From the NCBI RefSeq assembly GCF_022968795.1, contig NZ_JALJRB010000003.1:62001-126000 (forward strand): a stretch of DNA of 64,000 nucleotides, read 5' to 3'. The translations under genes were made by a program, and so were the position numbers. The notes beneath the pieces were generated by a model. That model searched no databases. It was not told the DNA's origin and was given only the letters and a program-made list of their open reading frames with translations. This stretch comes from Desulfatitalea alkaliphila (GTDB lineage: Bacteria > Desulfobacterota > Desulfobacteria > Desulfobacterales > Desulfosarcinaceae). Positions 24,353-61,764 of this stretch are shown in pieces; position 1 is the stretch's first letter; every line of letters begins with the position of its first letter.

Positions 24353-24504
24353 GACTGCAAGTCGAAGGGGATATGGGGATAACGCGGTTCGTCGCGTTCG
24401 TCAAAAACGTTCCCTGCTGCGATCCATTTTGGTTTGACATGACCCATGAGGTCGGTTATGAGAAGTGTTGTGCAAGGGTCGTACGGCGCCCTTGCGCGTC
24501 TGTT

Positions 24505-24705
24505 GAACCACTCCGGGGTCACGGAACCCTGTTCAAGTCAGGGGCGGGCCCGCCGCTGTAACCCCTTCGGCCATGCACAGCACTTGCCGGACAGTAAAAC
24601 CGGCAGCGCATGACCGACCCCGTCAGTCAACCATGCCACTGTTGTCGATGGACAATGGGAAGGCGGCTGCCGGCAGGGGAAGCCAGAAGACGTTCCCGGA
24701 GGCTG
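24505..24705 (+). promoter_or_regulatory. Cobalamin riboswitch upstream of cobN-like gene
   Basis: The conserved core GGGCCCGCCGCTGTAACC (near 24545-24562) is followed by GCCACTG near 24633, GGGAAGGCGGCTGC near 24657-24670 and AAGCCAGAAGACG near 24680-24692, all cobalamin riboswitch landmarks in order. It ends about 90 bases before the CobN-like gene, whose ribosome site (AGGAGGAAG) lies near a GC-rich hairpin (CCGCCG/CGGCGG), so control may act on translation. B12 binding should lower expression. Confidence 0.92.
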
Positions 24706-24793
24706 TATACCTTGTTGGAAAACGGCATGTGCGCGCCTGTAGCGCCGCCGTGGACCGGCCGGCGGGCTGTCATTTCAGGAGGAAGACCACGAC

Positions 24794-33168: not shown

Positions 33169-33239
33169 ATATCCCTGATTTAATCCTCGGAAGCTCAACG
33201 TGGTACGCCACCGTCCGCGCGGCCGTCACCCTATGTGTC

Positions 33240-33395
33240 CAGGGAGGTCTTCTGACTTTCGGATCGTCCTACCGGCCGCGCCTTCCCGGCCTCGCGGCCA
33301 GTGGCATTCTGCGGCTTTCGTCCCCGATCACAGCGGCGGGCCCGTCTCCGATTCACACGGAGTTCCCTCTTCGGCTCTGTGACGAGCACCTGAAC
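33240..33395 (-). promoter_or_regulatory. Cobalamin riboswitch upstream of the TonB receptor
   Basis: Read on the minus strand: AGGTGCTCGTCACAGAGCC, GAGGGAACTCCGTGTGAATC, GGGCCCGCCGCTGTGATC, ATGCCACTGG, GCCGGGAAGGCG and GTCAGAAGACC occur in the canonical order and spacing. This is a textbook cobalamin riboswitch. Confidence 0.97.
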
Positions 33396-34128
33396 AATGC
33401 CTGGCAGCATAAAGAATTACGCAAGCATGTCAAGAAAAATTTCAAATCCAAAAAGAAAGGCGCATGCATCATGCCAAATCTATACCAGACTCAGCTCCGT
33501 AGCGACGGGAGATGCAATTGATTGGGGTAGCTTTTCAGACAAAATCCTTCGGTGCTTAGAATGCAACGAGGTTGGGAAAAGGATGTGGGCCGATAGGGCA
33601 CGAAGCCGGTGAAGGGCGTCGTTGATTTTTTGAATAAAAACAGTGATTATTCGCCAACAGCCGTTTCAGCGGTCAAGCCGCGAAACGATACTCAACGTTA
33701 TGCGGCAGCACCCTTGAGTGCACCCTTTTCCGGCAGCAAAGGGCCGCATGTCCCATAATCCTCTCACTCCGCCGGTTGTCCGGATCGATTTGCATGGCGC
33801 CTGCATCATGGCGGGAAGACCGAAAAAAAGCCATGAAGCGCAACGCCGATGGAATCGGCGCGCATCATGCGGTTCCTTGATGGATGAATCTCTATAGGTT
33901 CTGCTTTAACTTCGCTTTGAGAATTCTTTTTTTATTTTGATATTCTAACTCGTCGGCCATTTACTGCCATTACCCGCAGGGCATGTCAACGATTATTTTC
34001 GTTGTCGCGCTGGAGAATAATAGACGTCCATCCAATTATAACTTTCCAAGTCGCTTATGTTCTGGCAATAGAAGAGAGGCGATTTAGCTGATAATGGATG
34101 CGCATAGTACATTTGAGGTCTGGAACTG
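33396..34128. other. Intergenic region, no gene seen
   Basis: About 730 bases between the riboswitch and the membrane sensor gene. One 71-codon frame (33397-33612) has no ribosome site or recognisable sequence. The DNA becomes AT-rich from about 33890, likely holding the promoter of the sensor gene; I could not assign a clear -35/-10 pair. Confidence 0.5.
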
Positions 34129-46118: not shown

Positions 46119-46571
46119 TCAGTGGGCGGCCTTTCTGCGGCATTCCGGACAGATGCCGTAGAAGTCCACCCGGTGGCTCAGAATGCGAAAGCCGGTGGAT
46201 TGCGCCAAGGTTTCAGTCAGGTGATCGAGGGCGTCCAACTCCGCGTCCAGGATGCGCCGGCATCGGGTGCACACCAAATGGGGATGGGGCGTCGGCACCC
46301 GCACGTCGTAGCGGTTGCCACCCTCGCCGAATCCGATCTCCATCACCTCACCCAGCTCCTTGAGCAATACCACGGTCTTGTAGACCGTGGCCAGGCTGGT
46401 GGTGGGAAAGTTGGGTTTGACCGCCGCGTAGACCATATCCACGCTGGGGTGGCTGTGACTGTCGGCAAAGGCACGCAGAATGGCAAGCCGCTGGGGCGTT
46501 ATCCGGTGCCCGGCCCGCCTCAATCTTTGCAGGATATCCTCGACGCGCGGGGAGTTGGAATGCACATTCAC
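46119..46571 (-). CDS. perR: Fur-family regulator, PerR-like
   Basis: 150 residues. A winged helix (HRITPQRLAILRAF, then TTSLATVYKTVVLL) is followed by a dimerisation domain with PHPHLVCTRC and CPECRR, giving a structural zinc site of two Cys pairs. The classic HHDH motif of Fur is absent, as in PerR/Irr branches. Gene order with rubrerythrin (120 bases downstream) fits peroxide-stress control. ATG 46571 has GGAAAGGATGATCG upstream. Confidence 0.9.
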   Translation of the reverse strand: MNVHSNSPRVEDILQRLRRAGHRITPQRLAILRAFADSHSHPSVDMVYAAVKPNFPTTSLATVYKTVVLLKELGEVMEIGFGEGGNRYDVRVPTPHPHLVCTRCRRILDAELDALDHLTETLAQSTGFRILSHRVDFYGICPECRRKAAH

Positions 46572-48214: not shown

Positions 48215-49236
48215 GGGGGACTCCACAAAAAAGCCGGATCCGCCATCGGACTGCGCGCAGAGGCCATGAGTTCCGGCATGAGCATGCGCAAGTAGCCGTC
48301 GATTTCGTCGGCCACGGCCGCGGCCGGTTGGAGCAGCACCGGGTCCCTTTCCAGGGAACGCGTAACGATCTCCCGGGGGATGTAGGCTTCAAAAGCCGGC
48401 GGCAGCGCGGCGACGCCCACCTGCGGATCGGCCTGCAGCCGCTGCGCGGCAGCCGCCATGGCGGCCACCAGGTGGGCGATGAGCTCCGGGTGGCGTCGGG
48501 CGGTTTCCCGGTGGACGGCCATGCCGGCGATGGGCATCCGTGCGGGACCGCCGGTGCGGCGGCCGTACCACTGTTCAACGCTGCCGGCCACCCGCAGGCT
48601 TGCGTCCCTGGACAGCAGGGTGCTGGCCAGGGGCTCGGGCACCAGGGCCGTATCGACCCGCCCGCTGTGCAGCAGCAAGGCCAGTTGCCGGGGCTCGTGG
48701 GGTTGAAAGCGGATGGACATGGCTCCGGCATCCCCCAGGGCGGTCAAGACGAACACCGCCGGAGAATCGGCCGGTGCGAAGGGCAGGTCCCGGCCGGCCA
48801 GATCATCGATGTCCTGAAGGGCGGGATCCCGGGTGACGATGTGAAACTTGCGCCACCCGCTGATCAAAAGCAAGGTGACCGGCGCGCCGGCGGCATGGGC
48901 CTGGGCGAACCCTTCGGTGTGTCCCAGCCAAAGGTCGCCCTTGCCGGCCAGCAGCACCCCCCGCAGGTCATCCAGGTTTTTCCACAAAACGACACGGATG
49001 TTGCAGTATTCGAGGATATCGCCGCTGCCCAGCGCCTCCCAGAAGGGCAACTGGGGCGTTGTGGCGAACCCGGTGGTGTAAAAGGTCAAGGTGGGCAGCG
49101 CCGGATCGCGGCCGTACACCATTGTGTGCCCGTCGCTCTCGTCCCGCAGGTGCCTGGCGCCGAAGAGCGCCAGGCCGACGAACGCCAGCACCCCGGCCGC
49201 CCCCACCCATCGTCGCAAGTTGCGGCCCATGGCCAT
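48211..49236 (-). CDS. NMT1/THI5-like periplasmic substrate-binding protein
   Basis: 341 residues. After a membrane anchor (VGAAGVLAFVGLALFGARHL) comes a type-2 periplasmic-binding fold with LTFYTTGFATTPQLPFWEAL and LVPEPLASTLLSRD, typical of NMT1/SsuA/TauA relatives. The anchor suggests it stays at the membrane. Its ATG overlaps the TonB receptor stop by one base (TGATG). It should deliver the ligand, after outer-membrane import by that receptor, to the permease and ATPase. Confidence 0.85.
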   Translation of the reverse strand: MAMGRNLRRWVGAAGVLAFVGLALFGARHLRDESDGHTMVYGRDPALPTLTFYTTGFATTPQLPFWEALGSGDILEYCNIRVVLWKNLDDLRGVLLAGKGDLWLGHTEGFAQAHAAGAPVTLLLISGWRKFHIVTRDPALQDIDDLAGRDLPFAPADSPAVFVLTALGDAGAMSIRFQPHEPRQLALLLHSGRVDTALVPEPLASTLLSRDASLRVAGSVEQWYGRRTGGPARMPIAGMAVHRETARRHPELIAHLVAAMAAAAQRLQADPQVGVAALPPAFEAYIPREIVTRSLERDPVLLQPAAAVADEIDGYLRMLMPELMASARSPMADPAFLWSPP

Positions 49237-51296
49237 CAGAAGGTCATTCTCCAGGTTGCCAGGACACTGCGGCCCGGCGCGTTCAACAGGGCGGGTTTGC
49301 GCCCGGTGGAAAGGTGCTCCCGATAGGTGGCGTCCAGCAGGTTGTGGGCCGCCAGACCCAGCTCCTGCACCGTGCCGGCCCACTGGAAACGGTAGGCGAG
49401 CCCGGCGTTGAGGGTTTGCCATCCGGGCGTTTCGTGCTCGGCGGGCCCCACCTTGGATTGACGGGAGGCCCAGGCCATTTCCAAGTGCCCATTGAGACCG
49501 ATGGCGGCATCACGGCGGATACCGGCCACGCCGTTGAGGGGCGGAATGTCGGCCAGATCCCGGTCCTCGGTGCGGTTGCGGCCCACGGTGTAGGCCGCGG
49601 TGGCATAGGCGCTCCAGAGCGGCATGAAACGCCACTGGACGGACGCTTCGGCCCCGTAAATGCGGGCCTCGGCCACATTGGCCATTTCACGCCGATCGGC
49701 GGCGACCGGAAGCTCCACGATCAGGTCGTCCACCCGGTTCCAGAAGGCGCCGAGGCCCATTACCAGGCGCGGCCGGATGTAGTGGAGCCCGTACTCGAAA
49801 AAGAGGGAGCGCTCGGGGTCCAGGTCCGGCGAGCCGTACACTTCGTAGCTGCCCAGGTGGATGTACTTGAACCGCTCCATCAAATCGGGCGCCCGGTAGC
49901 TGGAGGCACCCAGGAAGGTCATGGACCAGTCGGGCAGGAAGCGCCAGGTGAGGCCCAGGTGGGCGTCCCAGCTGGTGTCTTCGTATTCGTCGGCGGGCCG
50001 CTTGAGGGGGTTGGGGGCACCCGCCTGGGGCGGCTGCAGCCACACATAATGCGCCTCGCTTTCGGCCCGGATCAGATCGATCCGGCCGCCGGCATTGAGC
50101 GCCAGCGTGTCGCCGAGACGCCAGTGGTCTTCCAGAAACAATCCCGCCGACAACTGCTTGGCGTCGGCCACGGGCTGGTCGATGCCGACGGTGCCGTTGG
50201 CGAAGCGCCGGGTGCGTTCGGAGGTGATGGCCCACTGCCAGATGTCCGCGCCGATGGAGAGGCGGTGGTCGCCGCCGCGTATCGAATTGAACCATTTGAA
50301 GCCCCGGGTGCGGTGATGGGCCGAGGGGTGGATGCTGGTAATGGGCCCGGCCGCCGGAAGTCGGTCCACGCGCACGTTGCGGTCGATCTCCTGGTGGAAA
50401 AGATTCACGACCGAACCCTCCCAGGCCCCCCGCGCGGGTGTAAAGCTGTGGGTCAGGTCGATCAGTTTGCGGCTCGTGCGCGGGTAGGTCACATCGGCCA
50501 CCGCCGGCAGGGACGCCTCCCCCGTGCCGGGAATACCGATTTCGGCGCCCTCATGGTGCTGGTACTGGATCTGCGTGTGGTTCAAGGGGTTCCATTTGAA
50601 ACCGGCCTTCAGCGCCCCGCCGTAATCCTTGAACCGGCTGTTGGGAATCACCGTGCCGGTGCCGTCCTTGTAACTGTCGTAATCGCGCAGGTTGCCCGAT
50701 CCGTACACCCAGAAACGCGGGTTGTTGAGCATCAATCCGGCATGGGTGCCGAACCCGTCGGGGTTGCTCTTGTAAACGGAAGTGACGGTGCCGCCCGCCT
50801 CGGTGGTGTCGCTGAAGCGCCCCTTGCGGGTGATCACATTGACCACGCCGCCGATGGCGCCGGAGCCGTATAGCGCGCTGACCGGCCCTTTGAGCACCTC
50901 GATGCGCTCGATCTCCGCCGGATCGATCAGCCCGAACTGGGCGTTGAGATCGGTGGCGGTGTTGACCCGGCAGCCGTCGATGAGAAATACCACCCGGCCC
51001 CGCCCCAACCCGCGGATATTGACCTCCGCGCCCCAGGGACTGTCCGGGGAGATGGTGACCCCGGGTATGCGCCGCAGGGCATCGGCGATGCCGATGGGCT
51101 GGTCCCGGTGAACATCTTCCGCGTCCACCAACCCGATGCCGCCCGGTGTGTCGGAAATCCGGCTCTCGACCCCACGGGCCGAGACGACGATGTCGTCCAA
51201 CGCTACCGGCGGCGCGTCGGCGGCCGGCGCGGCCGGCGGCGCAAGGATCAGAACAATGAGAACAAACGCAACAATCCAAAGGTGACGTTTCGGCAT
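49236..51296 (-). CDS. TonB-dependent receptor of the seven-gene unit
   Basis: 686 residues: signal peptide (AFVLIVLILAPPAAPAA), TonB-box-like DDIVVSARG, plug with ALRRIPGVTISPDSPWG and YGSGAIGGVVNVITRKG, and a barrel ending in ATWRMTF. It is a standard ligand-gated outer-membrane importer. Because it shares an operon with a GTPase, a cytosolic ABC ATPase and an inner-membrane ABC importer, its ligand is presumably a metal complex or cofactor rather than a ferric siderophore. AGGATA precedes ATG 51296. Confidence 0.92.
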   Translation of the reverse strand: MPKRHLWIVAFVLIVLILAPPAAPAADAPPVALDDIVVSARGVESRISDTPGGIGLVDAEDVHRDQPIGIADALRRIPGVTISPDSPWGAEVNIRGLGRGRVVFLIDGCRVNTATDLNAQFGLIDPAEIERIEVLKGPVSALYGSGAIGGVVNVITRKGRFSDTTEAGGTVTSVYKSNPDGFGTHAGLMLNNPRFWVYGSGNLRDYDSYKDGTGTVIPNSRFKDYGGALKAGFKWNPLNHTQIQYQHHEGAEIGIPGTGEASLPAVADVTYPRTSRKLIDLTHSFTPARGAWEGSVVNLFHQEIDRNVRVDRLPAAGPITSIHPSAHHRTRGFKWFNSIRGGDHRLSIGADIWQWAITSERTRRFANGTVGIDQPVADAKQLSAGLFLEDHWRLGDTLALNAGGRIDLIRAESEAHYVWLQPPQAGAPNPLKRPADEYEDTSWDAHLGLTWRFLPDWSMTFLGASSYRAPDLMERFKYIHLGSYEVYGSPDLDPERSLFFEYGLHYIRPRLVMGLGAFWNRVDDLIVELPVAADRREMANVAEARIYGAEASVQWRFMPLWSAYATAAYTVGRNRTEDRDLADIPPLNGVAGIRRDAAIGLNGHLEMAWASRQSKVGPAEHETPGWQTLNAGLAYRFQWAGTVQELGLAAHNLLDATYREHLSTGRKPALLNAPGRSVLATWRMTF

Positions 51297-51317
51297 GGCG
51301 TATCCTCGTATTATGTA

Positions 51318-52175
51318 TTAGTGCGCTCCCAGGGACGCGTAATCCTCCCAGCCCATCCACAGCAGCCGCCCCCCATTGGCCTTCATCTCGTCGAACAGCG
51401 GCGCACTGCCCAGTACCGGGGCGAAGAGGCCCTGGACCGCCAGCATCTCCTGAAACGGCAGGGCCAGCAAATGACGCAGGACCGCAACGGCATCCGGGCC
51501 GGCGCCCCGCTTCACGAAGGCGATCAACGGCACGGCCAGGGCGCCCTCCTCGGGCCAGACCGCCCGGGCCATGCCGTTGCGGAACGTGCGCGCGAAGGCG
51601 GGAAAAACCATGCCGGCCTTGTAGCGCCCCTCGTCCACCGCCTTGTTGATGTCCTGGGGAAACAGCTGCGGATCCACCTGTCCGGCGGCCCGCCGCCCCT
51701 CCTCCCCGCACAACCGGGTCATCCAATATTTGCAGAGCGCCGGCGCCGGCGTGCTGTGGGGCGGAATGACCACCGCGCCGGCCAAATCCGCCCGGCAAAG
51801 ATCGGCCCACCCGACCGGCGGCGGGTCCACGTCGCGGTGGTGTATCAGCAGCAAGGGCACCACCCCGATCACCTTGAAAAACGGATGGGACTCCAAAAGC
51901 CCCGCCTTGGCCAGCTCCGGGCGCATGGGCGGCAGGTCCGCCGGCAAAGCGGCCAGTTGGTTGCGGTGCGTGAGGGCACGGGTCAGGGCGCCCGGGTAGG
52001 CGGTGACGGTCAGATCGGCAGTGGCTTGCGCTTCGCCGAAGCGGGCATTGTAGAAATCGGACATCTCCTCGTGGGTTTGCGGTTCGCGGACGATGACATC
52101 GGCAAAGCGGGCCCGGATGTCGTCGCCGGCCTGCCGTGCGATGTTGGGCGGCAGGGACAGGTGCAAGAGTGTCAT
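51318..52175 (-). CDS. Cytosolic solute-binding-like protein
   Basis: 285 residues with a type-2 periplasmic-binding-protein pattern (SHPFFKVIGVVPLLLIHHRD, GAVVIPPHSTPAPAL, VDEGRYKAGMVFPAFARTF, a final WMGWEDY) but no signal peptide: it starts MTLLHLSLPPNIARQ. So it should stay in the cytosol. The ATG overlaps the stop of the cytosolic ABC ATPase by four bases (ATGA), indicating tight coupling with it and with the GTPase. I do not know a characterised homologue; a role in holding a metal or cofactor inside the cell is inference. Confidence 0.72.
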   Translation of the reverse strand: MTLLHLSLPPNIARQAGDDIRARFADVIVREPQTHEEMSDFYNARFGEAQATADLTVTAYPGALTRALTHRNQLAALPADLPPMRPELAKAGLLESHPFFKVIGVVPLLLIHHRDVDPPPVGWADLCRADLAGAVVIPPHSTPAPALCKYWMTRLCGEEGRRAAGQVDPQLFPQDINKAVDEGRYKAGMVFPAFARTFRNGMARAVWPEEGALAVPLIAFVKRGAGPDAVAVLRHLLALPFQEMLAVQGLFAPVLGSAPLFDEMKANGGRLLWMGWEDYASLGAH

Positions 52176-53002
52176 GGAATCCAATCTCCGTTGGTAAGGG
52201 TTCGTCCGCCGCGCAAGGTTTCGCGGCAAGCCGCGAGGGTCGCATCGATGCGCCGCAAACCGGCCAGGCAGCGAATCTCGTCGGCGGAGGTGACATGCAG
52301 TTGGGTCATTGCGCCATTTTGCATCACCACCCGTTGCTGGGTCATGAGGGTCAGGACCGGATCGTGGGTGGCGATGAGGATCGGTTTATTGCTTGCGCTG
52401 AGCACGTTCAACGCCTCGAATTTATGGATACCGGCATTCTCGATCTCGTCGATCAGCACGATGGGCGCATCGGAAATAGCGGCGATATCGGCAATCATCA
52501 GCGCCCGTGACTGTCCCCCGCTCAGGGTGGGCAAGTCGGCTTCCGGCCGAATCGGCTCACCGCACAGGGTGTTGGCAACGGCCAGCACCGCCTCCACCAG
52601 CCCATCGGTCGCGCGTTGTTTGCTCTCTGCGTGACGCCGGAGAAAGGTCGCCACGGTGCCGTCCATGATGAAACCGGTTCTTTGGGACAGCCGGGCGACC
52701 AGGCCGCCGCCGTTCAGGGTGTCCCCCGGCGCCGCCCGGTTGATCAAAATGCGCCGGCCGCTGATGGTATCGCCCCGGGCAAGCTGTTCGATATCCGCCA
52801 GCAACTCGCTCTTGCCTGACCCGGTGGGGCCCACCACGGCAAGACACTCTCCGGCCCGGATGGTCAGTTCGGCGACCCTCTCCGGCTTGCCGTCCTTGCA
52901 AGTGCCCGCCAGCACGGTCAGGGCAGCAACCGGTCGCGCCGTTGCGGCCTGCGGCGCCGGCCCCCTTTCAGCGGCATCAGTGCTCATCGACATCTGGTGC
53001 AT
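52172..53002 (-). CDS. ABC-type ATPase without a membrane partner
   Basis: 276 residues with Walker A GPTGSGKSE, signature LSGGQSRAL, Walker B PIVLIDEIEN and switch ATHDP. The Walker B ends in E-I-E rather than the transporter-typical E-P, and no permease is next to it; the downstream permease has its own ATPase. It thus resembles soluble ABC ATPases used in enzyme maturation or repair. ATG 53002 follows AAAGGAT and overlaps the GTPase end by 26 bases. Confidence 0.8.
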   Translation of the reverse strand: MHQMSMSTDAAERGPAPQAATARPVAALTVLAGTCKDGKPERVAELTIRAGECLAVVGPTGSGKSELLADIEQLARGDTISGRRILINRAAPGDTLNGGGLVARLSQRTGFIMDGTVATFLRRHAESKQRATDGLVEAVLAVANTLCGEPIRPEADLPTLSGGQSRALMIADIAAISDAPIVLIDEIENAGIHKFEALNVLSASNKPILIATHDPVLTLMTQQRVVMQNGAMTQLHVTSADEIRCLAGLRRIDATLAACRETLRGGRTLTNGDWIP

Positions 53003-53750
53003 GGCAGCATCCTTTCTCAGCGGCGCGGCACGCGGCGGTGGTTCGAACGGACCCGCCCTGCGGCGCGATGGCGATCTTCTTGACATTCCCTGATTGGTAG
53101 GGTTGCCCGACGCGGACCTCCCCGGTGCAGTAGGAGCAGATGGCGGCCGGCATGGAATAGCGCAGCCGCCGGTGAACCGGTTCCGTCACGGGCGGCCAAC
53201 CCGCCACGATCCGCTTGAGCAGCACGACCCCCGTGCCGGTCAGCCCGTTGAAATGGATGATGGCCGCCGTAGGGTTCGCCTGCCGGACGTTGTAAGCGAA
53301 CACCTCCTTTTCGGCCTGGGAGACCATGTCGCCCTTGGTCACCACCACCAGGTCCGCCAGGCTCAATGCCGGCCCCATCTTGCCGGGAGCGTCCATCCCG
53401 CCCAGGTTGTCGATCACCGTGACGGCGGGCACCGCCTCGACATGGGGCGCGCAGCGGAAGCAGAGCCCGGCCGTTTCCACGAACAGCACATCGGCCGACT
53501 GCGCCAAGCCCCAGGCGTACACCTCTTCCAGGTTGGAGACATAGTAGTGGTCCGGGCAGACGTAATCGCCGAGGCCCTTGATGGCGGGGATGCCCACCCG
53601 GCGGGCATAGTGCCGATCATCCCCGGTGGCCAGGGCATCGAACTTGGCCGCCGCCACCCGCACCCCCTCGGCCAGCAGCCGCCGGGCCAAGTGGGAGATG
53701 ACGGCGGTTTTGCCGGACGAAGGTGTTCCGGCAACGGTGATCATTTTCAT
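52977..53750 (-). CDS. HypB/CobW-like GTPase with Cys motifs
   Basis: 257 residues of the SIMIBI GTPase class. P-loop GTPSSGKTAV is at the N-terminus, and the guanine site VVTKGD and VETAGLC switch region are visible. Cys pairs CFRC near residue 97 and CSYC near 207, and a C-terminal CCHAPDVDEH, could bind metal. Relatives (HypB, UreG, CobW, CooC-type) insert metals into enzymes. It is the first gene after RNA element a. ATG 53750 follows AAAGG. Together with the ATPase and cytosolic binding protein it looks like an intracellular metallocofactor handling set. Confidence 0.82.
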   Translation of the reverse strand: MKMITVAGTPSSGKTAVISHLARRLLAEGVRVAAAKFDALATGDDRHYARRVGIPAIKGLGDYVCPDHYYVSNLEEVYAWGLAQSADVLFVETAGLCFRCAPHVEAVPAVTVIDNLGGMDAPGKMGPALSLADLVVVTKGDMVSQAEKEVFAYNVRQANPTAAIIHFNGLTGTGVVLLKRIVAGWPPVTEPVHRRLRYSMPAAICSYCTGEVRVGQPYQSGNVKKIAIAPQGGSVRTTAACRAAEKGCCHAPDVDEH

Positions 53751-53811
53751 GGGCAAACCTTTCCACATGCTGCGCACCGGGCGCGGGACCGGCGGTGCCT
53801 GCTGTACAAAT

Positions 53812-53900
53812 AAAAAAAAGGGCGCAACAGGAAGCGGCTGACGCGCTTCGTGTTACGCCCTCACTTTCTTCGACCCTGCTGTAAGCCGAAGACCGCAAGA
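53812..53900 (-). promoter_or_regulatory. Leader RNA element, copy a (candidate riboswitch or attenuator)
   Basis: On the minus strand: TCTTCG (stem 5' side), a 14-base variable loop, CGAAGA, then AAGTGA, then a terminator stem beginning GGGCGTAACA and ending TGTTGCGCCC, followed by eight T's at 53819-53812. The terminator ends 62 bases before the GTPase start. The same layout occurs at 57544-57615 and 61586-61676. The shared AGTGA-rGGCGYAAC block and the sequence-varying first stem suggest a sensed ligand. Confidence 0.75.
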
Positions 53901-54262
53901 CGCCAATTTTGAAATTACTTGTAAAGTTTTAATTTTCTAAATTCGAACGAGTACTGAATTTCATATCCCGAGTTGCTTGTCAAGCCATTTTGACGTTTGA
54001 CCGCAAAAATTCCTCATTATTTGGATACGAGCGCTTCAGATATCAAACAAATGACTTGACAACATAATTTTAAATTTCGTATTAATTTTGTAGCCTTTAT
54101 CTTTGTTTTAATAAACTAACCATAGACACCCTGCACGTCATGCGCGTTTCCGGTGCCGGGCACGAGAAGTGACGTCCGAAGCACGCGACAGCGGTTTCTT
54201 CATAATGGTGATAGATGCAATGCACCAGCCATCTGCTGCTATGCGATTAAGGAGCAATAACG
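53901..54262. other. AT-rich intergenic region with divergent promoters
   Basis: About 360 bases between RNA element a (minus strand) and a small plus-strand gene. It is AT-rich. A plus-strand promoter is visible at 54056-54085. I could not assign a clear minus-strand promoter for the element. Confidence 0.5.
54056..54085 (+). promoter_or_regulatory. Sigma-70 promoter for the small plus-strand genes
   Basis: TTGACA at 54056-54061 and TATTAA at 54080-54085 are separated by 18 bases. The -35 matches the consensus exactly. It is about 180 bases upstream of the gene at 54263. Confidence 0.6.
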
Positions 54263-54637
54263 ATGAGTTCTTCATTCGAAACCACAGAATTGAACAACCG
54301 GAGCAAAGGGACGAATACCGGCACACCTGTTCGTTTGAGCGTCTCCCTCTCTGTGGAGACCTTGCACCGGCTGCTTGCGACAAGCCAGCTGTGTGCTGCG
54401 GAATTACAATGTCTGGACCGGGCCTCTCGGTTTGCGTTGCGGCGGCTTTGCCTGGAAAGCTGCATCGGACCCGCAAATTGCGCAGTTCGCAGACCGCAAC
54501 AACCAGGACCAATTCCCCGGAACCCTTGTCATCCGCTTCGGCATCAACCCCGCGCCGAGCGCCGCGCGGATGCCATCACCGCCCCACCCGCCGGTGTCCG
54601 CAGGAGAAGCTTATGCAACCCTTTCATGAGTCACTAA
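54263..54637 (+). CDS. Small protein of unknown function with LCAAEL..LCLESC pattern
   Basis: A strong ribosome site (AAGGAGCAATAACG) precedes ATG 54263, so a gene starts here. The first ~65 residues look like a conserved small domain: RLSVSLSVETLHRLLATSQL then CAAELQCLDRASRFALRRLC. After residue ~68 (LESC) the sequence becomes Pro/Arg-rich and resembles out-of-frame GC-rich DNA, so a frameshift or a shorter natural product is possible. No family known to me. It reads divergently from the metallocofactor operon. Confidence 0.55.
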   Translation: MSSSFETTELNNRSKGTNTGTPVRLSVSLSVETLHRLLATSQLCAAELQCLDRASRFALRRLCLESCIGPANCAVRRPQQPGPIPRNPCHPLRHQPRAERRADAITAPPAGVRRRSLCNPFMSH

Positions 54638-54807
54638 AGACCCTTTTCAACGTGGCGGCGACAGCATCGAACGCGGACGCCGGCTACGGACGCATCAACT
54701 GCCGCCGCCGCCGGGAAAACCGCAACCCTGTGCGGGAAGAGATTTCACGGATCATCGCACGCCCGAGCATCGTCAAAAACAGTACGGCCGCTGTACCGGA
54801 AAGATGA
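54613..54807 (+). CDS. Small protein of unknown function
   Basis: 64 residues, MQPFHESLKTLFNVAATASN to the end VPER, with an excellent ribosome site AGGAGAAGCTT directly before ATG 54613. It overlaps the end of the preceding small gene by 25 bases. The middle is Arg-rich (INCRRRREN). No recognisable family. The strong start and overlap suggest co-expression with the gene at 54263. Confidence 0.5.
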   Translation: MQPFHESLKTLFNVAATASNADAGYGRINCRRRRENRNPVREEISRIIARPSIVKNSTAAVPER

Positions 54808-54837
54808 TGGCGCGTTTTGACGGCCTTTATGGTCCCA

Positions 54838-54873
54838 GCCACTGCGCGCACTGCAATGGATGTGCGCAGTGGC
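54838..54873. terminator. Hairpin between small genes and the TonB receptor
   Basis: GCCACTGCGC (54838-54847) pairs perfectly with GCGCAGTGGC (54864-54873). It sits between converging genes, about 30 bases after the small gene and 95 bases after the receptor's stop on the other strand, so it may end both transcripts. No T-run follows. Confidence 0.5.
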
Positions 54874-54967
54874 AGAGACGATCAGACGGCCTCCCTGTGC
54901 CGATCAACTGCCTGCGAAAGTTGCCTCAACGGCACAAAAACAGCTGTGTGGCCGTCAGCCCGGCCGA

Positions 54968-57451
54968 TTAAAACCGGGTGGCGACACTCAGATAGAAATT
55001 GCGCCCCTTGCCCACGCGGGTCGTGGTTTCCACGTCGCGGGCGTTGATGTAGGCATCATCGAACAGGTTGTTGATACCCAGGGTCAGTTCGGGAGCGCGA
55101 CCGAAAAGGGACAGACCCTTGACCTCCGGCGTCCATGTGGCGGCGACATTGGCCTGGGTGAAGCTCTCCCGCACGCGCCAGTAGGTGGTGCCGCCGCTGA
55201 CGACGGTCTCGGGGTTCTGGTCGGGCTTGAACCAGTGGGTGACGGAGGCCCCCACCCGCAAGGTGTGCAGCGGACGGACATAGGCGCCCAGAGTGGCTTT
55301 GTCCGCGAAGCCCTGGGGGGTTTTCTCCTTGGTGGCGTCGTCGACCTGGTCCAGATGGGAGTAGCTGAGCCGCGCGCCCCAGCGTGGAGCGTCGTACATG
55401 GCGGTCATCTCGTACCCGTCCCGGGAGACGCTGTCGACATTGCGGTAGGTGCCGTAGGGGGTTCCCTCGGGCGAGTCAGGCCCGTCGAGAGCGGCCTTGA
55501 AGGCGATCATGTCCTTGATCTTGCCATTGAAATACATCGCCTTGAACATCAACCGGTCCCGGTTGGCGAGCAGCCCGTTCTTGGCATAGGATAGTCCGGC
55601 TTCGTACTCGCGGGCGATTTCCGGTTTCAGGTCGGGATTGGGCAGGTACCAGTAGTGGCGGTTGAGGGGGCCCTCCGAGGAGGTTTCGTGGGGCGTCGGG
55701 GCGCGGAACGATTCGGAGTAGTTGCCCAGCAAGTGCAACCCTTCGAACAAACGCACCGCTAAACCGATGCGCGGCGAGAAGTGCTCATCGGTGTATTTTC
55801 CCGCGTTGGCCTTGACCCGCCGGTCGAAAGTGTCGTAGCGGCCGCCGGCCTGGACGATCAATCCTTCGTTGAAAAAAGCCGATTCGAGATGTACGAAAAG
55901 ACCGGTGTCCTTGTAGGTATTGGGCATGGACCCGAACACCGTCGCCACGCCGTTGCGTACGTAGGAGGCGTCTTCTTCCCTGTTTTCGTGGTCGAAACCG
56001 AGCAGCAGACGGTTGCGGGCCGCGAGGGCATCGAAGATCATTTGATTGTGCAAGCGGAAACCCCAACGATCGTCCTCGTTTTCGTAGTCCAGTTTCTGTT
56101 GGACGCCGCCGGTGTCCTCGTATACCCAGCCCCGGTCGTAACTGGACCAGCCTTTGTAGGCCGTGGCCTGCAGGTTGACCCAGCGGGAGCCGTAGGGGTT
56201 CAGGCTGTAGGTGGCCACGAGATCGCGCTGGGTCAGGGTGCCGATCACCGGTCCGGTGACGGTGCTGTAACCGGGGTGGTACAAGGATTGCCAGGTCACC
56301 TCCGCATCCTGGTGAAAATCGTAATAGGAGAGCGCGATGCGCGAACCGCCGCCCAGGTGCAGGGCCCCTTTGGTGAAAATTACGCGCAGATCCTCCTTGT
56401 TGTCCACCGTGTCCGTGTACCCGCCGTCGGCCGTTTGATATTTGCGGGCCAGCGCCTTGTCGCCGTGGCGGCCGAGTTTGCCGTACAACAGGAACTCGTA
56501 AGGTCCGTCGGCCGGTGCCACCGCGCCGGCCACATAGCCTTCGCGATAGTTGTTGGTTTCGTAGCGCATTTTCGCGGCGACCCCGAGGTGTCGCCCCGGT
56601 GCCAGGAAATCATGGGCATCCTTGGTGGTCATGGCCACCACGCCGCCGATGGCGCCGCCGCCGTGGTGGACCGACGAGGCCCCCTTCACGATTTCCACGC
56701 TTTTGAGCAGGTCGTTGTCGGAACGGAAGGAGGAGACCTGGTTGGAGTAGAGCGCCGGCGACCGACGAACGCCGTCCTGCAAAATGATGACCCGGTCCTC
56801 GGATTGGTAGCCGAAACCGCGGATGTTGAACTGCTGCCCCATGCCGCGGCCGCTGTCGCCGCCGGTGGAGACCCCCGGCACATCCGCAAGGGCTTCGATG
56901 ACGGTGCTGGTGCCGCGCAACTCCTCTTCGCCGAGCACGGTGACCGATCCCGGATATTTGTTCACCGCCAGTGCCATGCTTGTGCCGGTCACCGTGACAT
57001 CGGACACCGTCGCCCTGTCGTCCGGGCGGCGGGTTCCGCGGCTGCCGATGCGCAGGGTGTAGGGGTCTTGACCGGCCACGGTCACGGCAAGATCGTGTCC
57101 GGCCAGCAGGCGCTCCAGGGCGTCGTCGACGGCGTAGCTGCCCTGCAACGCAGGACTCAGCCGCCCGGCCACCAGCGCGGGATCGAAAACGAGGACAATG
57201 CCCGCTTGTCGGGCAACGAGATGCAGGGCTTCGGCCATGTCACCGGCCGGCACCTGGAAATGCCTCTGCTCGGCGCCGCCGGTTCGGGCCCAGGCCGTGG
57301 CGGCGTCGGCGCTGATCATGATGGCGATCGACAGGAGCCAGACCGACAATACCATCATCGCCGCGCCGAGAGCGGTGCGGCGCACGGCTGCCGGACGGGA
57401 GGCGGGGTGCATGGTTTTGTTGGAAAACTGCGCGTGGGGCGTACGGTACAT
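54968..57451 (-). CDS. TonB-dependent receptor with N-terminal STN domain
   Basis: 827 residues. After a signal segment (MMVLSVWLLSIAIMISADA) there is an STN domain (about residues 60-135: FQVPAGDMAEALHLVARQAG, AVDDALERLLAGHDLAV) used in FecA-type surface signalling or structural roles. The plug follows (EALADVPGVSTGGDSGRGMG, HHGGGAIGGVVAMTTKDA) and a barrel ending FYLSVATRF. No FecI/FecR pair is in the window. ATG 57451 follows AAAAGGAAAGG. RNA element b lies 93 bases upstream, so it should respond to the same signal as units 1 and 3. Confidence 0.92.
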   Translation of the reverse strand: MYRTPHAQFSNKTMHPASRPAAVRRTALGAAMMVLSVWLLSIAIMISADAATAWARTGGAEQRHFQVPAGDMAEALHLVARQAGIVLVFDPALVAGRLSPALQGSYAVDDALERLLAGHDLAVTVAGQDPYTLRIGSRGTRRPDDRATVSDVTVTGTSMALAVNKYPGSVTVLGEEELRGTSTVIEALADVPGVSTGGDSGRGMGQQFNIRGFGYQSEDRVIILQDGVRRSPALYSNQVSSFRSDNDLLKSVEIVKGASSVHHGGGAIGGVVAMTTKDAHDFLAPGRHLGVAAKMRYETNNYREGYVAGAVAPADGPYEFLLYGKLGRHGDKALARKYQTADGGYTDTVDNKEDLRVIFTKGALHLGGGSRIALSYYDFHQDAEVTWQSLYHPGYSTVTGPVIGTLTQRDLVATYSLNPYGSRWVNLQATAYKGWSSYDRGWVYEDTGGVQQKLDYENEDDRWGFRLHNQMIFDALAARNRLLLGFDHENREEDASYVRNGVATVFGSMPNTYKDTGLFVHLESAFFNEGLIVQAGGRYDTFDRRVKANAGKYTDEHFSPRIGLAVRLFEGLHLLGNYSESFRAPTPHETSSEGPLNRHYWYLPNPDLKPEIAREYEAGLSYAKNGLLANRDRLMFKAMYFNGKIKDMIAFKAALDGPDSPEGTPYGTYRNVDSVSRDGYEMTAMYDAPRWGARLSYSHLDQVDDATKEKTPQGFADKATLGAYVRPLHTLRVGASVTHWFKPDQNPETVVSGGTTYWRVRESFTQANVAATWTPEVKGLSLFGRAPELTLGINNLFDDAYINARDVETTTRVGKGRNFYLSVATRF

Positions 57452-57543
57452 GTTTCGATTCCTTTCCTTTTCAGATGGCATTGAGTGACCATGCCCACCC
57501 TGTGAGCATGGCGGCCGGTTTTCCATCACGCCGTCCGAGATGC

Positions 57544-57615
57544 AAAAAGGCGCAACCCCATGATGGGTTACGCCTTCACTGCCTTCGTCCGCGCTGCTAA
57601 CGAAGATCGTAGGGC
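57544..57615 (-). promoter_or_regulatory. Leader RNA element, copy b (candidate riboswitch or attenuator)
   Basis: On the minus strand: ACGATCTTCG, a 13-base variable loop (TTAGCAGCGCGGA), CGAAG, GC, AGTGA, then the terminator stem AGGCGTAACCC / GGGTTGCGCCT and five T's (57548-57544). Copy b is the most compact. It has the same order and conserved blocks as copies a and c. Confidence 0.75.
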
Positions 57616-57705
57616 ATTCCTGGTTGAAATTGAATCGCGATAGGGTTTACCGTTATCGCGGATCGGGGTGTAACCACCCCTGCTGCGTGGATTTGCGCTT
57701 GACCG

Positions 57706-58740
57706 CTATTGAACGCTGTCCGAAGTGTGCTCCCAGGCGCCGAGTGCATCCGCCCAGGTGCGCAGCACGTCCGGGTATTCGATCACGCCGGCATCGACAT
57801 AGGCCGGCAGGCTGAACAGGCGGTGGTTTTTCAACGCCGGCACTTCCGCCAGGGCCGGCATTTGCCGGACGGCTTCGGCCAGGGCCTTTTGCACCGCAAA
57901 GGCGTTGCCGGTCATCACGATGACATCCGGGGCCGCTTCGACCAGGGGGTCCAACACAGGCCCGGTTTTGCGACGGGGGACGGCGAAGTGGCCTTTGGCC
58001 GGCTTGCTGCCGTCGATCCGGAAATGGTGCCCGACATTCTTTGCGCCGATCCTTTCAAGCAAGAAGACATCGGCATACCCCCCGGGCGCTTCGATCCGCA
58101 GCATGGCGCGCCCGGTGGATTCCTGGTAGGTGCCGTTGATGATAATCACGCTCTTGCCGGGGTTTCGGGCCTTGAGACTGTTTTGCACGGTGGCCCGCTT
58201 GGTATTGTAGGTTTCGATCAGCGCTTCGGCCTCGGCGCGGCGATCCAGCAATTCGGCGGCTTGGCGGATGGCGCTTTCAAGCCCATTGGAGAAATCGACA
58301 TAGGCGATTTCCAATCCCTTGTCCGCCAGTATCGTCCCCAGGTTCTCCGGCTTGAGGTCGGGCCGGTACTCGCAGTAGCGGGGATGCTTTTCTACCAGAA
58401 TCCGTTTGAGTCCGTTGCGCCGGGCGGCTTCGATGATGGCCTCGCCTTCGCCCCTGGCGACACAGTTGGGACACCCCAGAACCTGTACACGGTTCTTGAG
58501 TTGATCACACAAGGGCCAGAGGGAGCAGCGCACCGACATGGCCACCGGCACGACACCCAGGTGATAGGCCACATCGGCGACGCGATCTCCCAAGATGATC
58601 ACATCCGCCCGCGCGGGCACTTGCTGCGGCGCGGCGGCCGATTCGCGGACAACGGTGCCGAAGGCCACCAGCGCCGCGATCACCAGGATATGAGCGCACA
58701 TGGCGGCCAAGGTTGCAAAGGGATGGGTGCTTCGTTTCAT
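57706..58740 (-). CDS. Periplasmic binding protein, FepB/BtuF-like, with extra Cys
   Basis: 344 residues with an export signal (ILVIAALVAFGTVVRESAAA) and a type-3 periplasmic-binding fold (VIILGDRVADVAYHLGVVPV; LVEAAPDVIVMTGNAFAVQK). Such proteins carry siderophores, heme, B12 or metal chelates. Unusual features are CSLWPLC, CPNC and a single C in RYCEYRP, which could bind a metal or Fe-S cluster. ATG 58740 follows AAGGAG. It follows a TonB receptor by 69 bases. No permease or ATPase is in this unit, so it may deliver to a transporter elsewhere, perhaps unit 1. Confidence 0.82.
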   Translation of the reverse strand: MKRSTHPFATLAAMCAHILVIAALVAFGTVVRESAAAPQQVPARADVIILGDRVADVAYHLGVVPVAMSVRCSLWPLCDQLKNRVQVLGCPNCVARGEGEAIIEAARRNGLKRILVEKHPRYCEYRPDLKPENLGTILADKGLEIAYVDFSNGLESAIRQAAELLDRRAEAEALIETYNTKRATVQNSLKARNPGKSVIIINGTYQESTGRAMLRIEAPGGYADVFLLERIGAKNVGHHFRIDGSKPAKGHFAVPRRKTGPVLDPLVEAAPDVIVMTGNAFAVQKALAEAVRQMPALAEVPALKNHRLFSLPAYVDAGVIEYPDVLRTWADALGAWEHTSDSVQ

Positions 58741-58808
58741 GGACACACTCCTTGATGTGGATGGTTTCAGGTGACCGGCCGATACCGCGCTTGGCGGCCG
58801 GTGATGCG

Positions 58809-60713
58809 CTACATGCGAATCGAGACCCCGGCATGGAAAGTGGTGGGCGCGATCAGGGTGACGCCGTCCCGGACGATGCGCTTGTCGAGGATGTTCTCCA
58901 CCCCCGCGAACAGCTCCAGATGCCGGCCGAGCCCTTTGGCGACGTAGGCCCCGAACAGGGGGTAGGAGTAGCGTTCGCCGTCGGCGTAAGTGATCCGGCC
59001 GATGCCGCTCATGCGCAGGTTGGCCCGCAGGCGCATCTCCGGATGGTGAAATCCCAGCTTGATGAAGTATTTGTATTCGGGCTGGGCGCCGATGTTCTCG
59101 CTGCCGGAGCGGTTTTCCACGTCCAGCCAGGTGAAATTGCCGTCCAGGGTGAGGCCCAGGGGCAGGCGGACGCCGGCCTCCGCTTCGATGCCCTTGAGGG
59201 TGGCTTCGGCGATGTTGCGGTACTGGTAAAAATCCCTGCGGTTCTGGCCGCTGCCCTCGGAGCGATCAAAGACGGTTTCGATCAGGTTGTCCACCTCCGT
59301 CTGAAAGCCGGTCATCCTGCCGTAATATCGGGCTTGGGTCAGTTCGATGCCGAGCTCGTAGGTGATGGAAGATTCCGCTTCCAGGTCCGGATTGGCGGCA
59401 TACACATCGCGCCCCCGGCGGCGGAAAGAGGTGACGTTCAGTTCCGTCAGCGATGGCGCCCGGAAGCCGTGTGCGTAAGCACCCTTGAGGCGCAGGGCGT
59501 CGGTGAGGCTGTAGATGGCGGATGCGCGAGGCGTCCATCGGTCCCCGAAGCCCGAGTGGTTGTCGTAGCGCAGGCCCAACACCACGTATAGGGGATCGAG
59601 CAGGTGAAATTCGTTTTGCGCGAACACACTGCTGTTGTCCACCGACGCGTCCGTGCGCAACCCCATCTGGGTGTCGTCCAGGCCGTCCCGACGCAGCTCG
59701 CCCCCGATGGTCAACAGGTGACGATGCCACAGCAGGCCGGAATAACGCGCTTCGGCCTGGTTGATGTACTGCTCGGTTTGCCGGCGGCCCGATTCGGCAA
59801 AGGGGTTGAAGCCCATCTCATTCCGGTATTCGGAGCGGTTGACCCGCAGCAGCAGTTGATGCATGGGTTTCAGCCGCAAATCGTACTGCAGGTGGTAGCC
59901 CCGGCGCTCCTCCTGGAACCGTCGTTCACGAGCCAGGTTCTCGTAGAACTGATCGCCGGTGTACACGTTGTCGTTGTACTCCATCCCGCCGGACAGGGAT
60001 TGGCGGTCGGTGAAGTCAAAGGCGACGCGGCCGGCGGCGAAGCGCGGCCGCTGCCTGAAGCCGTCGTCGGGCAGCATCCCGTCCTGGTCCCACCCTTGCG
60101 TGTGTCCCGATTCGGCCGCCGCCAGCAGGCGCAACCGATCCAGGGACCCGCCTACCAAGGCGCCGCCGGTGAAACTCTGGGCGTCGCCGAAGCGGTTGAC
60201 GCCATACTGCCCGGTGAGTTCGGCGGTGGTCGCTTCGGGCGCGCGCCGCGTGATGATGTTGACCACGCCGCCAAGAGCGTCGCTGCCGAACAGGGCCGAT
60301 GCCGGACCGCGCACCACCTCGATGCGCTCCACCATATGGGCCGGAATCTGCCGCAGATCGATCATGTCGTTGAACCCGAAGGCCAACCGCCGGCCGTCCA
60401 GCAGCACCAGGGTGTGCTTGCTGCGCCCCCCCCGAATGGCGGGCACCCGGACCCGTCCGGACTCCCGCGAAACCACCAGCCCGGCGGCGCTCTCCAGGGC
60501 GTCGGCCACCGTCAAGGCATTCATTTCGCGCATCTCCCGGGCGCTGATCACCTGCACGGCGCCGGGCGCATCGACGATGGTCTTCTCCGTCATGGTGGCC
60601 GTCACCACCACCTCACCCGCCTGCAACGCCTCTTCTCCATTGGCGGCGGCAGTGGGAACCACCGCCGGGCAAAACATCATGACCGCAGCCGCTAACAACA
60701 ACCGTCGAAACAT
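58809..60713 (-). CDS. TonB-dependent receptor of the FmdE unit
   Basis: 634 residues: signal peptide, TonB-box-like GEVVVTATM, plug (VADALESAAGLVVSRESGRV; FGSDALGGVVNIITRRA) and a barrel ending AGVSIRM. ATG 60713 follows GAGGTG. It is between an FmdE-like gene and a periplasmic binding protein gene in the unit led by RNA element c, so the three should act on one ligand: capture, outer-membrane import and periplasmic binding. Confidence 0.92.
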   Translation of the reverse strand: MFRRLLLAAAVMMFCPAVVPTAAANGEEALQAGEVVVTATMTEKTIVDAPGAVQVISAREMREMNALTVADALESAAGLVVSRESGRVRVPAIRGGRSKHTLVLLDGRRLAFGFNDMIDLRQIPAHMVERIEVVRGPASALFGSDALGGVVNIITRRAPEATTAELTGQYGVNRFGDAQSFTGGALVGGSLDRLRLLAAAESGHTQGWDQDGMLPDDGFRQRPRFAAGRVAFDFTDRQSLSGGMEYNDNVYTGDQFYENLARERRFQEERRGYHLQYDLRLKPMHQLLLRVNRSEYRNEMGFNPFAESGRRQTEQYINQAEARYSGLLWHRHLLTIGGELRRDGLDDTQMGLRTDASVDNSSVFAQNEFHLLDPLYVVLGLRYDNHSGFGDRWTPRASAIYSLTDALRLKGAYAHGFRAPSLTELNVTSFRRRGRDVYAANPDLEAESSITYELGIELTQARYYGRMTGFQTEVDNLIETVFDRSEGSGQNRRDFYQYRNIAEATLKGIEAEAGVRLPLGLTLDGNFTWLDVENRSGSENIGAQPEYKYFIKLGFHHPEMRLRANLRMSGIGRITYADGERYSYPLFGAYVAKGLGRHLELFAGVENILDKRIVRDGVTLIAPTTFHAGVSIRM

Positions 60714-60806
60714 TGTCATCACCTCGTTGGATTCCATAGATGGCGGGACCAAAATGGCATATCGGCGTTCGCGGCCGTCGCCGCCGGGGCCGCGAACGCC
60801 GTCGTT

Positions 60807-61532
60807 TCACAGTTCGCCGCTATCCCCCGCCCGGGCCTGGCGCCGCATGTCGCGGATGTGCCGATCGATCTCCCCCGGCACGATGGCCCCCCAGGCGACA
60901 AAGTGAGCCACTTCCGCCTCGCCGAACAGTTCCGCAGCCTTCAACCGGGTGAAATTATCCAGCATGCCTTGGCGGTCCCGACTGCGTTTGGCGCTTTCCG
61001 CCTCGCTTATCGTGCCCTCCTTGGTTTTCGCCCGCAGGATGAACCAATCTTCAGGCCACAACTCTGTGTTGAGCCGCAGGGTCACCATCTGCATGGTGGA
61101 TTTGCGCATGAACTGAAACACGAACTTGTCGGTGCCGCCGGCGATTCCGGGCGGCGGCCAGGTGCGGCTGCCCGGACCGGTGCCCCTGACGATCAGGTCC
61201 AGCAGGTCCATGGGTCCGCCGGGCGCCAGGGTGAGGATCACCACGTCGTCGAGGTCGGGGGTCTGCTGTCCGAATAGCAGGTCCATGCCATGCTGGACGG
61301 CCCGAAACGCCAGGGTGGCGCCGGCGCACACCCCGCCGTGATGATCGTAAACATCGGTCAAATAGATGGAGCGCGTTTCACCCTTCTGAAGGACGGTGAT
61401 CGGCGCCAGCGTCTTGGCCGCCGGCGGATAGGCATCGTCGTCGCAGGCCTTGGCCACGCCCATGCCCAAGCACACGGCCATCGCCAGGGCAGCCAACACA
61501 ATACCTGGCTTTCTCAATGAAAATCGGAACAT
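60807..61532 (-). CDS. Exported FmdE-like protein
   Basis: 241 residues. A perfect AAGGAGGTAAGCATT site precedes ATG 61532. A signal peptide (VLAALAMAVCLGMGVAKA) is followed by an FmdE-like domain: HHGGVCAGATLAFRAVQHGM resembles the H-x-C-P-G-x-x-x-G-x-R-A motif, and APGGPMDLLDLIV the second conserved part. FmdE was named from formylmethanofuran dehydrogenase operons; the domain is zinc-binding and often lies beside metal or cofactor transport genes. Export of such a protein suggests ligand binding or modification in the periplasm. The identification rests on short motifs, so moderate confidence. Confidence 0.65.
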   Translation of the reverse strand: MFRFSLRKPGIVLAALAMAVCLGMGVAKACDDDAYPPAAKTLAPITVLQKGETRSIYLTDVYDHHGGVCAGATLAFRAVQHGMDLLFGQQTPDLDDVVILTLAPGGPMDLLDLIVRGTGPGSRTWPPPGIAGGTDKFVFQFMRKSTMQMVTLRLNTELWPEDWFILRAKTKEGTISEAESAKRSRDRQGMLDNFTRLKAAELFGEAEVAHFVAWGAIVPGEIDRHIRDMRRQARAGDSGEL

Positions 61533-61585
61533 AATGCTTACCTCCTTGTAATGAAATCGGTTCACGCCGCGGTGACACGCGGCAC

Positions 61586-61676
61586 AAAAAAAGGCGCAAC
61601 CGGACGCTGGGTAACGTCGTCGGTTGCGCCTTCACTTATTTCGGCGGTTCTTACGAACCCCGAAAGACGTAAGGAT
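61586..61676 (-). promoter_or_regulatory. Leader RNA element, copy c (candidate riboswitch or attenuator)
   Basis: On the minus strand: TTACGTCTTTCGG, a loop that itself folds (GGTTC GTAA GAACC), CCGAAA, TAAGTGA, then a long terminator stem starting AGGCGCAACCG and ending CGGTTGCGCCT, with seven T's at 61592-61586. Compared with copies a and b the first stem has compensating changes (UUUCGG/CCGAAA versus UCUUCG/CGAAGA). It lies 54 bases before the FmdE-like gene. Confidence 0.75.
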
Positions 61677-61764
61677 TATCGCACTTATTTTGAGTTCTCT
61701 AATTTATAAAATGGGGGAATTACCACAACCGTTCGACCCATGTCAACAGCCAAAACAGTATGGG

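Follow-up and report, generated by a model that had tools for sequence, protein, structure and literature searches.

A 64,000-nucleotide stretch of the Desulfatitalea alkaliphila genome (contig NZ_JALJRB010000003.1, positions 62,001 to 126,000; hereafter the window) carries three minus-strand leaders in front of TonB-receptor units. Copy 1 precedes a unit for an FmdE-type protein, a TonB-dependent receptor, and a periplasmic binding protein, copy 2 heads a TonB receptor gene itself, and copy 3 heads a CobW/HypB-type gene in a TonB/ABC transporter unit (Table 1). An earlier note on this DNA had described leaders of one architecture lying 54 to 93 bases before the first gene. We located all three where it had placed them, model searches identified them as real copies of one conserved RNA element, and the distances from leader to likely start codon were 62, 93, and 54 bases. 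The element was found to start about 10 bases earlier than the note had it, with a conserved CUUACGG before the first stem. A strict pattern gave exactly three matches in the 5.07-Mb genome, all in the window, and none when read backwards; the model search added a fourth copy outside the window on the same contig (G000:C23:148904-149003), which precedes a DUF3450-type gene.

The copies have in common a CTTACGG-like block, a six-pair stem, a variable top, the sequence AAGTGAAGGCG(C/T)AAC, and then GTT(A/G)CGCC with a T-run. In an alignment of 70 sequences (A3) that was fitted to the stem P1 and the terminator, with the outer helix P0 left out of the fit, 92.1% of the cells of P1 and the terminator were paired, with 206 both-side changes, and their covariation score was 0.536, compared with 0.224 in shuffled alignments (0 of 500 shuffles reached it). 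The compensating changes that had been read in the first stem of the three window copies are thus borne out on a larger sample. The conserved letters noticed inside the terminator stem were also recovered, but in diverged copies the stem sequence differs, with changes on one strand compensated on the other, as in GACATAAAG/CTTTATGTC.

P0, which the earlier note lacked, pairs CUUAC with GU-G-AAG around one bulged G (A3 columns 9-15 with 83-84 and 86-90, G85 being bulged). It was 94.1% paired in A3, falling to 27 to 67% when slid by 1 to 3 columns and to 71.8% when drawn without the bulged G, which is present in 69 of the 70 sequences; G16/A82 is found in all 70. The P0 score was 0.155, compared with 0.124 ± 0.008 in shuffles (0/500 reached it). 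Since related sequences may beat shuffles without any structure, double exchanges weigh more than such counts: A-U is replaced by G-C at pair 14-84 in 4/70 sequences, U-A by G-C at another pair in one, and G-C by A-U at a third in one. A second alignment (A4; 108 distinct rows, the copies partly those of A3) was fitted to P0 and P1 with the terminator left out; here C-G replaces U-A at pair 12-84 in 6/108 rows, and the terminator was 96.0% paired with 21 both-side changes (0/500 shuffles). P0 covaries too, more weakly than P1 and the terminator.

P0 and the 5′ strand of the terminator have three bases in common (A3 columns 88-90, GGC). By these column numbers, P0 needs the GGC that also begins the terminator, so the full P0 and the full terminator are mutually exclusive, making P0 a plausible antiterminator. 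Covariation in both the terminator and the helix upstream that excludes it, with the weaker support for P0, suggests from sequence that the element is a transcription attenuator. Median predicted energies were −16.6 kcal/mol for the hairpin and −20.4 kcal/mol for the terminator. A different antiterminator, CUUACG paired with CGYAA inside the terminator arm, was rejected: although 89% of its cells pair, its covariation score is matched in 99 of 500 shuffles, and it also breaks at pair 14-92 in 22/69 cells.

Building a covariance model and searching relatives' genomes, as the earlier note had proposed, yielded many homologues with covarying stems. A looser pattern gave 19 matches in 13 of 146 genomes, the window's own included, and none in the reversed control; the first model, built from these 19 sequences, which were picked without regard to genes, found the element in 31 of the 146 genomes, with up to 11 copies in one. 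Model R2 found it in 24/395 genomes of the phylum and 48/291 of the class (own genome in both). A scan of named genomes for CTTACGG-gap-AAGTGAAGGCGYAAC, the one strict pattern with which we looked beyond the window's phylum, gave 56 stretches, 53 of them titled deltaproteobacterial, Desulfo-, Syntropho-, Smithella-, or "Proteobacteria"; named carriers include Desulfosarcina widdelii PP31, D. alkanivorans PL12, and Desulfobotulus alkaliphilus. The other three were metagenome-assembled genomes (MAGs) titled Thermodesulfovibrionales (two strong copies), Acidobacteria (one strong copy and one weak, at 30 bits), and WOR-3. The weak Acidobacteria copy (L170:4115-4210) stands before a frame that resembles a ZIP metal transporter. 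Of 94 matches of model R1, the 24 below 25 bits were dropped, 23 of them lying over a strong match on the opposite strand. Models and named-genome scan together gave 191 aligned matches. After merging, 153 distinct copies remained, almost all of which belong to the window's phylum or to named Desulfobacterota. Among them are a 49-base partial match where a contig ends and four that score just 30 to 32 bits; a small number, at E near 1e-4, could be false.

The genes downstream of these 153 copies (tblastn within 3 kb on the same strand, with seeds from the element loci themselves) point to iron uptake in the relatives. FeoA was found after 43 copies, in 36 as the first assigned gene, and FeoB after 40, followed by DUF2325 Cys-rich proteins (21), LbtU-type porins (20), TonB receptors and DUF4198-type proteins (14 each), DUF3450 (8), periplasmic binding proteins (6), AraC-type, MoxR-like, and FecI/FecR proteins (3 each), flavodoxin (2), and four families found once each. 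The STAS-like and HD-GYP seeds matched after 18 copies each, the two having a domain in common, and 37 copies had no family assigned, in part through contig ends. The seeds for FeoA (PF04023), FeoB (PF02421), the LbtU porin (NF033652 at 5e-92), and flavodoxin (TIGR01753) were confirmed in the libraries, and those for the TonB receptor and the binding protein by the Pfam matches of the window genes; the STAS-like seed had no Pfam match, and the MoxR-like seed stayed below the Pfam cut-off. "STAS-like", "HD-GYP", "FecI-FecR", and "CDF" are provisional labels. Flavodoxin and Fe(II) uptake together form the classical gene set of iron shortage.

The metal uptake regulon proposed in the earlier note thus stands for the relatives in the form of mostly iron uptake genes, but the FmdE- or HypB-like genes that it expected downstream occur in the own genome only, FeoA/FeoB being the commonest elsewhere. 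The four element units of the own genome (FmdE/TonB/binding protein; TonB; CobW-HypB-type/ABC/TonB; DUF3450) might suggest that the common signal is another metal or cofactor, such as Mo, W, Ni, or Co; those in the window hold FmdE, CobW/HypB-type, ABC, and TonB genes without feoAB, and the contig also carries a CbiM gene. We hold this to be highly improbable, since among the named genes of the relatives FeoA/FeoB and LbtU porins occur most often, and flavodoxin is present too. For the own genome's four units, iron is accordingly a reading taken over from the relatives.

Two groups of loci deserve separate mention. The DUF2325 protein with its Cys-rich motifs (L057:5807-7051, minus strand) often comes right after the element, before a protein of about 120 amino acids without a Pfam match. 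In addition, a subgroup without an iron gene (L086:7134-7235, L159:6630-6732, and L132:2184-2273) lies about 280 to 500 bases before a frame that resembles a type IV pilin; in L086, an uncharacterized 71-residue frame lies between them.

An open frame recurs upstream of the element and ended just before it in most of the 42 copies in which we first noted it. It encodes a small protein of about 97 residues with the C-terminus AIxEAIxVLEESRKAFKSKRLExLRKxLTxVLI, of which F, S, K, E, L, R, and L are invariant in 38 sequences. The protein is basic (median isoelectric point 8.5, with a median net charge of +3 around the conserved motif) and predicted to be all-helical (mean predicted local distance difference test score 81). 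None of five representatives had a significant match in Pfam or NCBIfam, and Foldseek and PDB sequence searches returned nothing reliable (best E, 3.3 and 0.27). The small protein or a fragment of it was found within 2 kb upstream of 55 of the 153 copies, a DtxR-type gene at 30, and both a DtxR-type gene and the small protein at 26; three of three DtxR-type representatives exceeded both Pfam cut-offs (Fe_dep_repress and Fe_dep_repr_C). The observed order is dtxR, small protein, element, and then feoAB or the DUF2325 gene. At some loci (L118, L110, and G262 contig C17, 1648-1716 and 3549-3737), just the 3′ part of the small-protein gene stands before the element, which suggests that the element may have spread by duplication from the protein locus.

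In the promoter regions, a TTGACA-like box recurs by eye upstream of many copies, and a TAGA-N4-TCTA dyad has 28 matches in the 153 upstream regions, a count made without a chance control, 19 of which share one site, 28 bases ahead of CUUACGG. The dyad may be the operator of the DtxR-type repressor, in which case control would have two layers, one repressing the promoter and the other attenuating transcription in the leader. At some loci, longer complementary arms flank the dyad, and an extra RNA hairpin is also possible there. These dyads and DtxR-type genes would also fit a passive attenuator or a processed leader, with all iron control at the promoter (DtxR-type or Fur) and an element that sets a fixed read-through or protects the mRNA. 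We consider this very unlikely, since a fixed-strength terminator needs no covarying P0, no near-invariant CUUACGG, and no linked protein. Loss of Fur as the reason for the element was rejected as well: Fur-family proteins were found in 87 of 97 genomes, which speaks against a general replacement, and three element genomes gave no Fur-family match (G064, 77% complete; G074; G077).

The element and the small protein occur together across genomes far beyond expectation. Among the 146 genomes, 31 have the element, 27 the small protein, and 25 both (expected overlap 5.7, p 2.5e-20), which at the genus level becomes 16, 15, and 13; among the 291 class genomes, the numbers are 48, 37, and 35 (p 6e-32), and in the phylum set the protein was found in 18/22 genomes with the element versus 0/58 without, figures to be read with the reservations that the protein profile was built from element-adjacent proteins, that the samples overlap, and that the p-values are inflated by ignoring shared ancestry. 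Four genomes have the protein only: no element was found in them even at a lax threshold (best E 0.59), and their protein matches are short, interrupted, or beside a contig end. A genome usually has a single gene for the small protein but may carry up to 13 elements, which fits a regulator acting in trans. The DUF2325 protein was rejected for this role, since it co-occurs more loosely (15/24 element genomes among the 97, p 9e-6), and some element genomes, G033 (98% complete) for instance, gave no match to it; it is retained as a regulon member only.

In our view, the frequent presence of a small, basic, helical protein in the element genomes makes a protein-operated antiterminator likelier than a stand-alone riboswitch. 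In the latter case, the P0/P1 internal loop and the bulged G would bind Fe(II) or an iron-linked metabolite and thereby shift the balance between P0 and the terminator, the small protein being a co-regulated neighbour. The most conserved bases (CUUACGG ... AAGUGAAGG) do surround this internal loop and bulge, ON riboswitches are known with a compact hairpin-plus-terminator layout, and the protein went undetected in 6 of the 31 element genomes, including one with seven copies (G074). However, the candidate pocket is very small, and the linkage in the phylum set would be left unexplained. Also, if Fe(II) stabilized P0, iron would turn uptake on, the reverse of what is needed; a ligand would thus need either to report a lack of iron or to destabilize P0. 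We therefore regard direct ligand sensing as unlikely.

The same linkage would fit a small protein that promotes termination when iron is plentiful, by binding the hairpin or the terminator as a second lock behind the DtxR-type repressor; the adjacent protein gene precedes the element, so the protein would be made even when the element terminates. Yet a conserved helix that competes with a terminator is the usual design of antitermination, and the terminator alone is already predicted to be strong, which leaves this direction of action distinctly improbable.

We somewhat favor the view that the element is an attenuator of iron-limitation genes and that the small protein stabilizes its antiterminator, inferring binding, direction of effect, and iron response from the sequence comparisons above. 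The nascent leader would fold either as a long hairpin, in which P0 stacks on P1 via conserved G-A contacts, or as an intrinsic terminator, and, with P0 taking GGC at the foot of the terminator 5′ arm, the two states would draw on a common set of bases. The likeliest candidate for operating this switch is the helical protein with its RKAFKSKRLE-type C-terminus, which may bind the conserved P0/internal-loop region and hold the antiterminator so that the polymerase reads through, and which would do so in trans for every copy. The main route for iron would be the DtxR-type repressor, whose gene is often ahead of that of the small protein in the operon, with the RNA or the small protein as possible further routes.

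Several observations weigh against this antitermination scheme. Regarding the RNA, the competition between P0 and the terminator covers no more than three pairs, with possible A-U pairs in addition, and the terminator was predicted to be the more stable state in 121 of the 150 copies (of 153) for which energies were computed. On two of the five P0 measures, 16 and 13 of 500 shuffles did as well as the real alignment, and P0 slid by +2 columns still scores 0.129. As for the protein, Pfam, NCBIfam, and structure searches gave no known RNA-binding fold, its structural model has a predicted TM-score of 0.44, and Cys is not conserved (none in 5 of 38 sequences). Besides the six genomes of the 146 set (G001, G009, G010, G053, G074, and G076), in which a lax search also gave nothing convincing, the protein was not found in 13/48 element genomes of the class and 4/22 of the phylum. 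Some of these have weak element matches or are incomplete, and the four phylum misses comprise G147 (66% complete), G366 and G434 (very weak element matches), and G227 (strong element); G074 is listed as 100% complete. In the own genome, none of the four units is feoAB, and no element was found adjoining the small-protein gene.

The earlier note had matched the leaders to no riboswitch class, and our searches agree: against Rfam 15 at the gathering cut-off, the window gave only two cobalamin riboswitches located elsewhere in it (33225-33419, minus strand, 112.7 bits; 24498-24713, plus strand, 54 bits), and permissive scans of 49000-62500 and of nine relatives' loci gave matches all far below gathering scores, ruling out a known riboswitch as its identity in the sequences scanned. 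The literature searched, including passages in PMC545781, PMC2864571, PMC8632094, PMC10043782, and PMC8934654, shows no such element; a 2017 list of 224 RNA candidates lay outside the comparison.

In its proposed working, the element would resemble the ribonucleic antiterminator (RAT) hairpins of BglG/SacY/LicT. Those proteins control sugar phosphotransferase system genes, whereas the element precedes iron genes, and the small protein has no significant Pfam match to their RNA-binding domain. The dual-hexaloop RNAs of ANTAR proteins (EutV) are alike in that a protein-stabilized motif excludes a terminator at several sites per genome (PMC8934654). ANTAR RNAs have hexaloops with A1 and G4, whereas the conserved part of the element is at the hairpin base, and its P1 loops were seen on inspection of 70 aligned copies to vary in length and sequence; neither an ANTAR nor a CAT RNA-binding domain was found in the five small-protein representatives at E up to 1. 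By these features, the element is outside the LicT/RAT and ANTAR systems.

Metal-ion riboswitches (NiCo/czcD and yybP-ykoY Mn) likewise place a leader RNA over metal homeostasis genes, and the title of a reference reports a response of NiCo/czcD to iron(II) (PMC10043782). The element is a single hairpin without an Rfam match in the sequences scanned; those riboswitches have a multi-helix junction. The element's gene list overlaps the Fur regulon reported for Desulfovibrio, with feoAB, flavodoxin, MoxR-like, and AraC-type regulator genes in the dFUR-box regulon of delta-proteobacteria (Rodionov et al. 2004; PMC545781); the dFUR-box is the repressor's DNA operator, whereas the common signal here is an RNA structure, and the dyad upstream is TAGA-N4-TCTA. 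The Desulfotalea-1 motif (Weinberg 2010), which could be compared by description only, is an orphan RNA candidate under Proteobacteria with a name pointing to Desulfotalea, and it is listed with "?" as RNA, "n" as cis-regulatory, and no Rfam number (PMC2864571).

Accounts of iron control in bacteria usually center on the repression of promoters by Fur or DtxR. We see an even chance that the Desulfobacterota have an iron regulon controlled at transcription elongation, by a new family of RNA antiterminators on which small RNA-binding proteins, likewise of a new family, act in trans, with a DtxR-type repressor setting the expression of those proteins. If true, this would be protein-RNA antitermination for iron, distinct from Fur, from translational control like that of iron-responsive elements, and from metal riboswitches. 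In sulfate reducers and their relatives, a conserved terminator switch stands before FeoAB, LbtU-type porins, TonB receptors, and flavodoxin, mostly in genomes that also encode the small protein without a known family. Confirmation would add a new class of RNA element and a new family of candidate RNA-binding proteins, and it would offer a way to annotate iron genes in uncultured bacteria of sediments, which drive the cycling of sulfur and carbon. It also becomes possible to test whether iron sensing takes place during elongation and which molecule is responsible.

Table 1. Element copies in the window and the genes of their units (window positions; R1 and R2, search models)
Feature	Position	Strand	Basis
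RNA element copy 1, whole model match	61585..61683	-	R1 74.1 bits; R2 E 2.2e-12
Copy 1 antiterminator hairpin, P0+P1	about 61675-61628	-	Leader sequence
Copy 1 terminator	5′ arm 61630-61623, 3′ arm 61600-61593, U-run 61592-61586	-	Leader sequence
FmdE-type protein, first gene after copy 1	60807..61532	-	PF02663 E 2.6e-5; ATG with AGGAGG; listed open reading frame (ORF) start 61565
TonB-dependent receptor, copy 1 unit	58809..60752	-	PF00593/PF07715
Periplasmic binding protein	57706..58746	-	PF01497 E 1.5e-9
RNA element copy 2	57541..57623	-	R1 58.6 bits
Copy 2 hairpin	about 57615-57572	-	Leader sequence
Copy 2 terminator	arms 57574-57567 and 57556-57549, U-run 57548-57544	-	Leader sequence
STN-type TonB-dependent receptor, directly after copy 2	54968..57451	-	PF00593, PF07715, PF07660; listed ORF start 57529
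RNA element copy 3	53813..53909	-	R1 74.0 bits
Copy 3 hairpin	about 53901-53857	-	Leader sequence
Copy 3 terminator	arms 53859-53852 and 53828-53821, then C, U-run to 53812	-	Leader sequence
CobW/HypB/UreG-type GTPase, first gene after copy 3	52977..53750	-	PF02492 E 8.4e-11; listed ORF start 53777
ABC transporter ATPase, copy 3 unit	52172..53086 (ORF as listed; real start probably lower)	-	PF00005
Extracellular solute-binding protein, copy 3 unit	51318..52229	-	PF13343
TonB-dependent receptor, copy 3 unit	49236..51296	-	PF00593/PF07715

Among these genes, the hypB match of the copy 3 GTPase is below the cut-off, and a query with the FmdE-type protein found no relative in the genome contigs. 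The own-genome genes for the DUF2325 protein (C23:131517-131789) and the small protein (C23:132776-133057) lie in the same contig stretch as the four elements. A Fur-family gene is located near the regulon cluster, at 46158-46514 on the minus strand (G000:C23:108158-108514).

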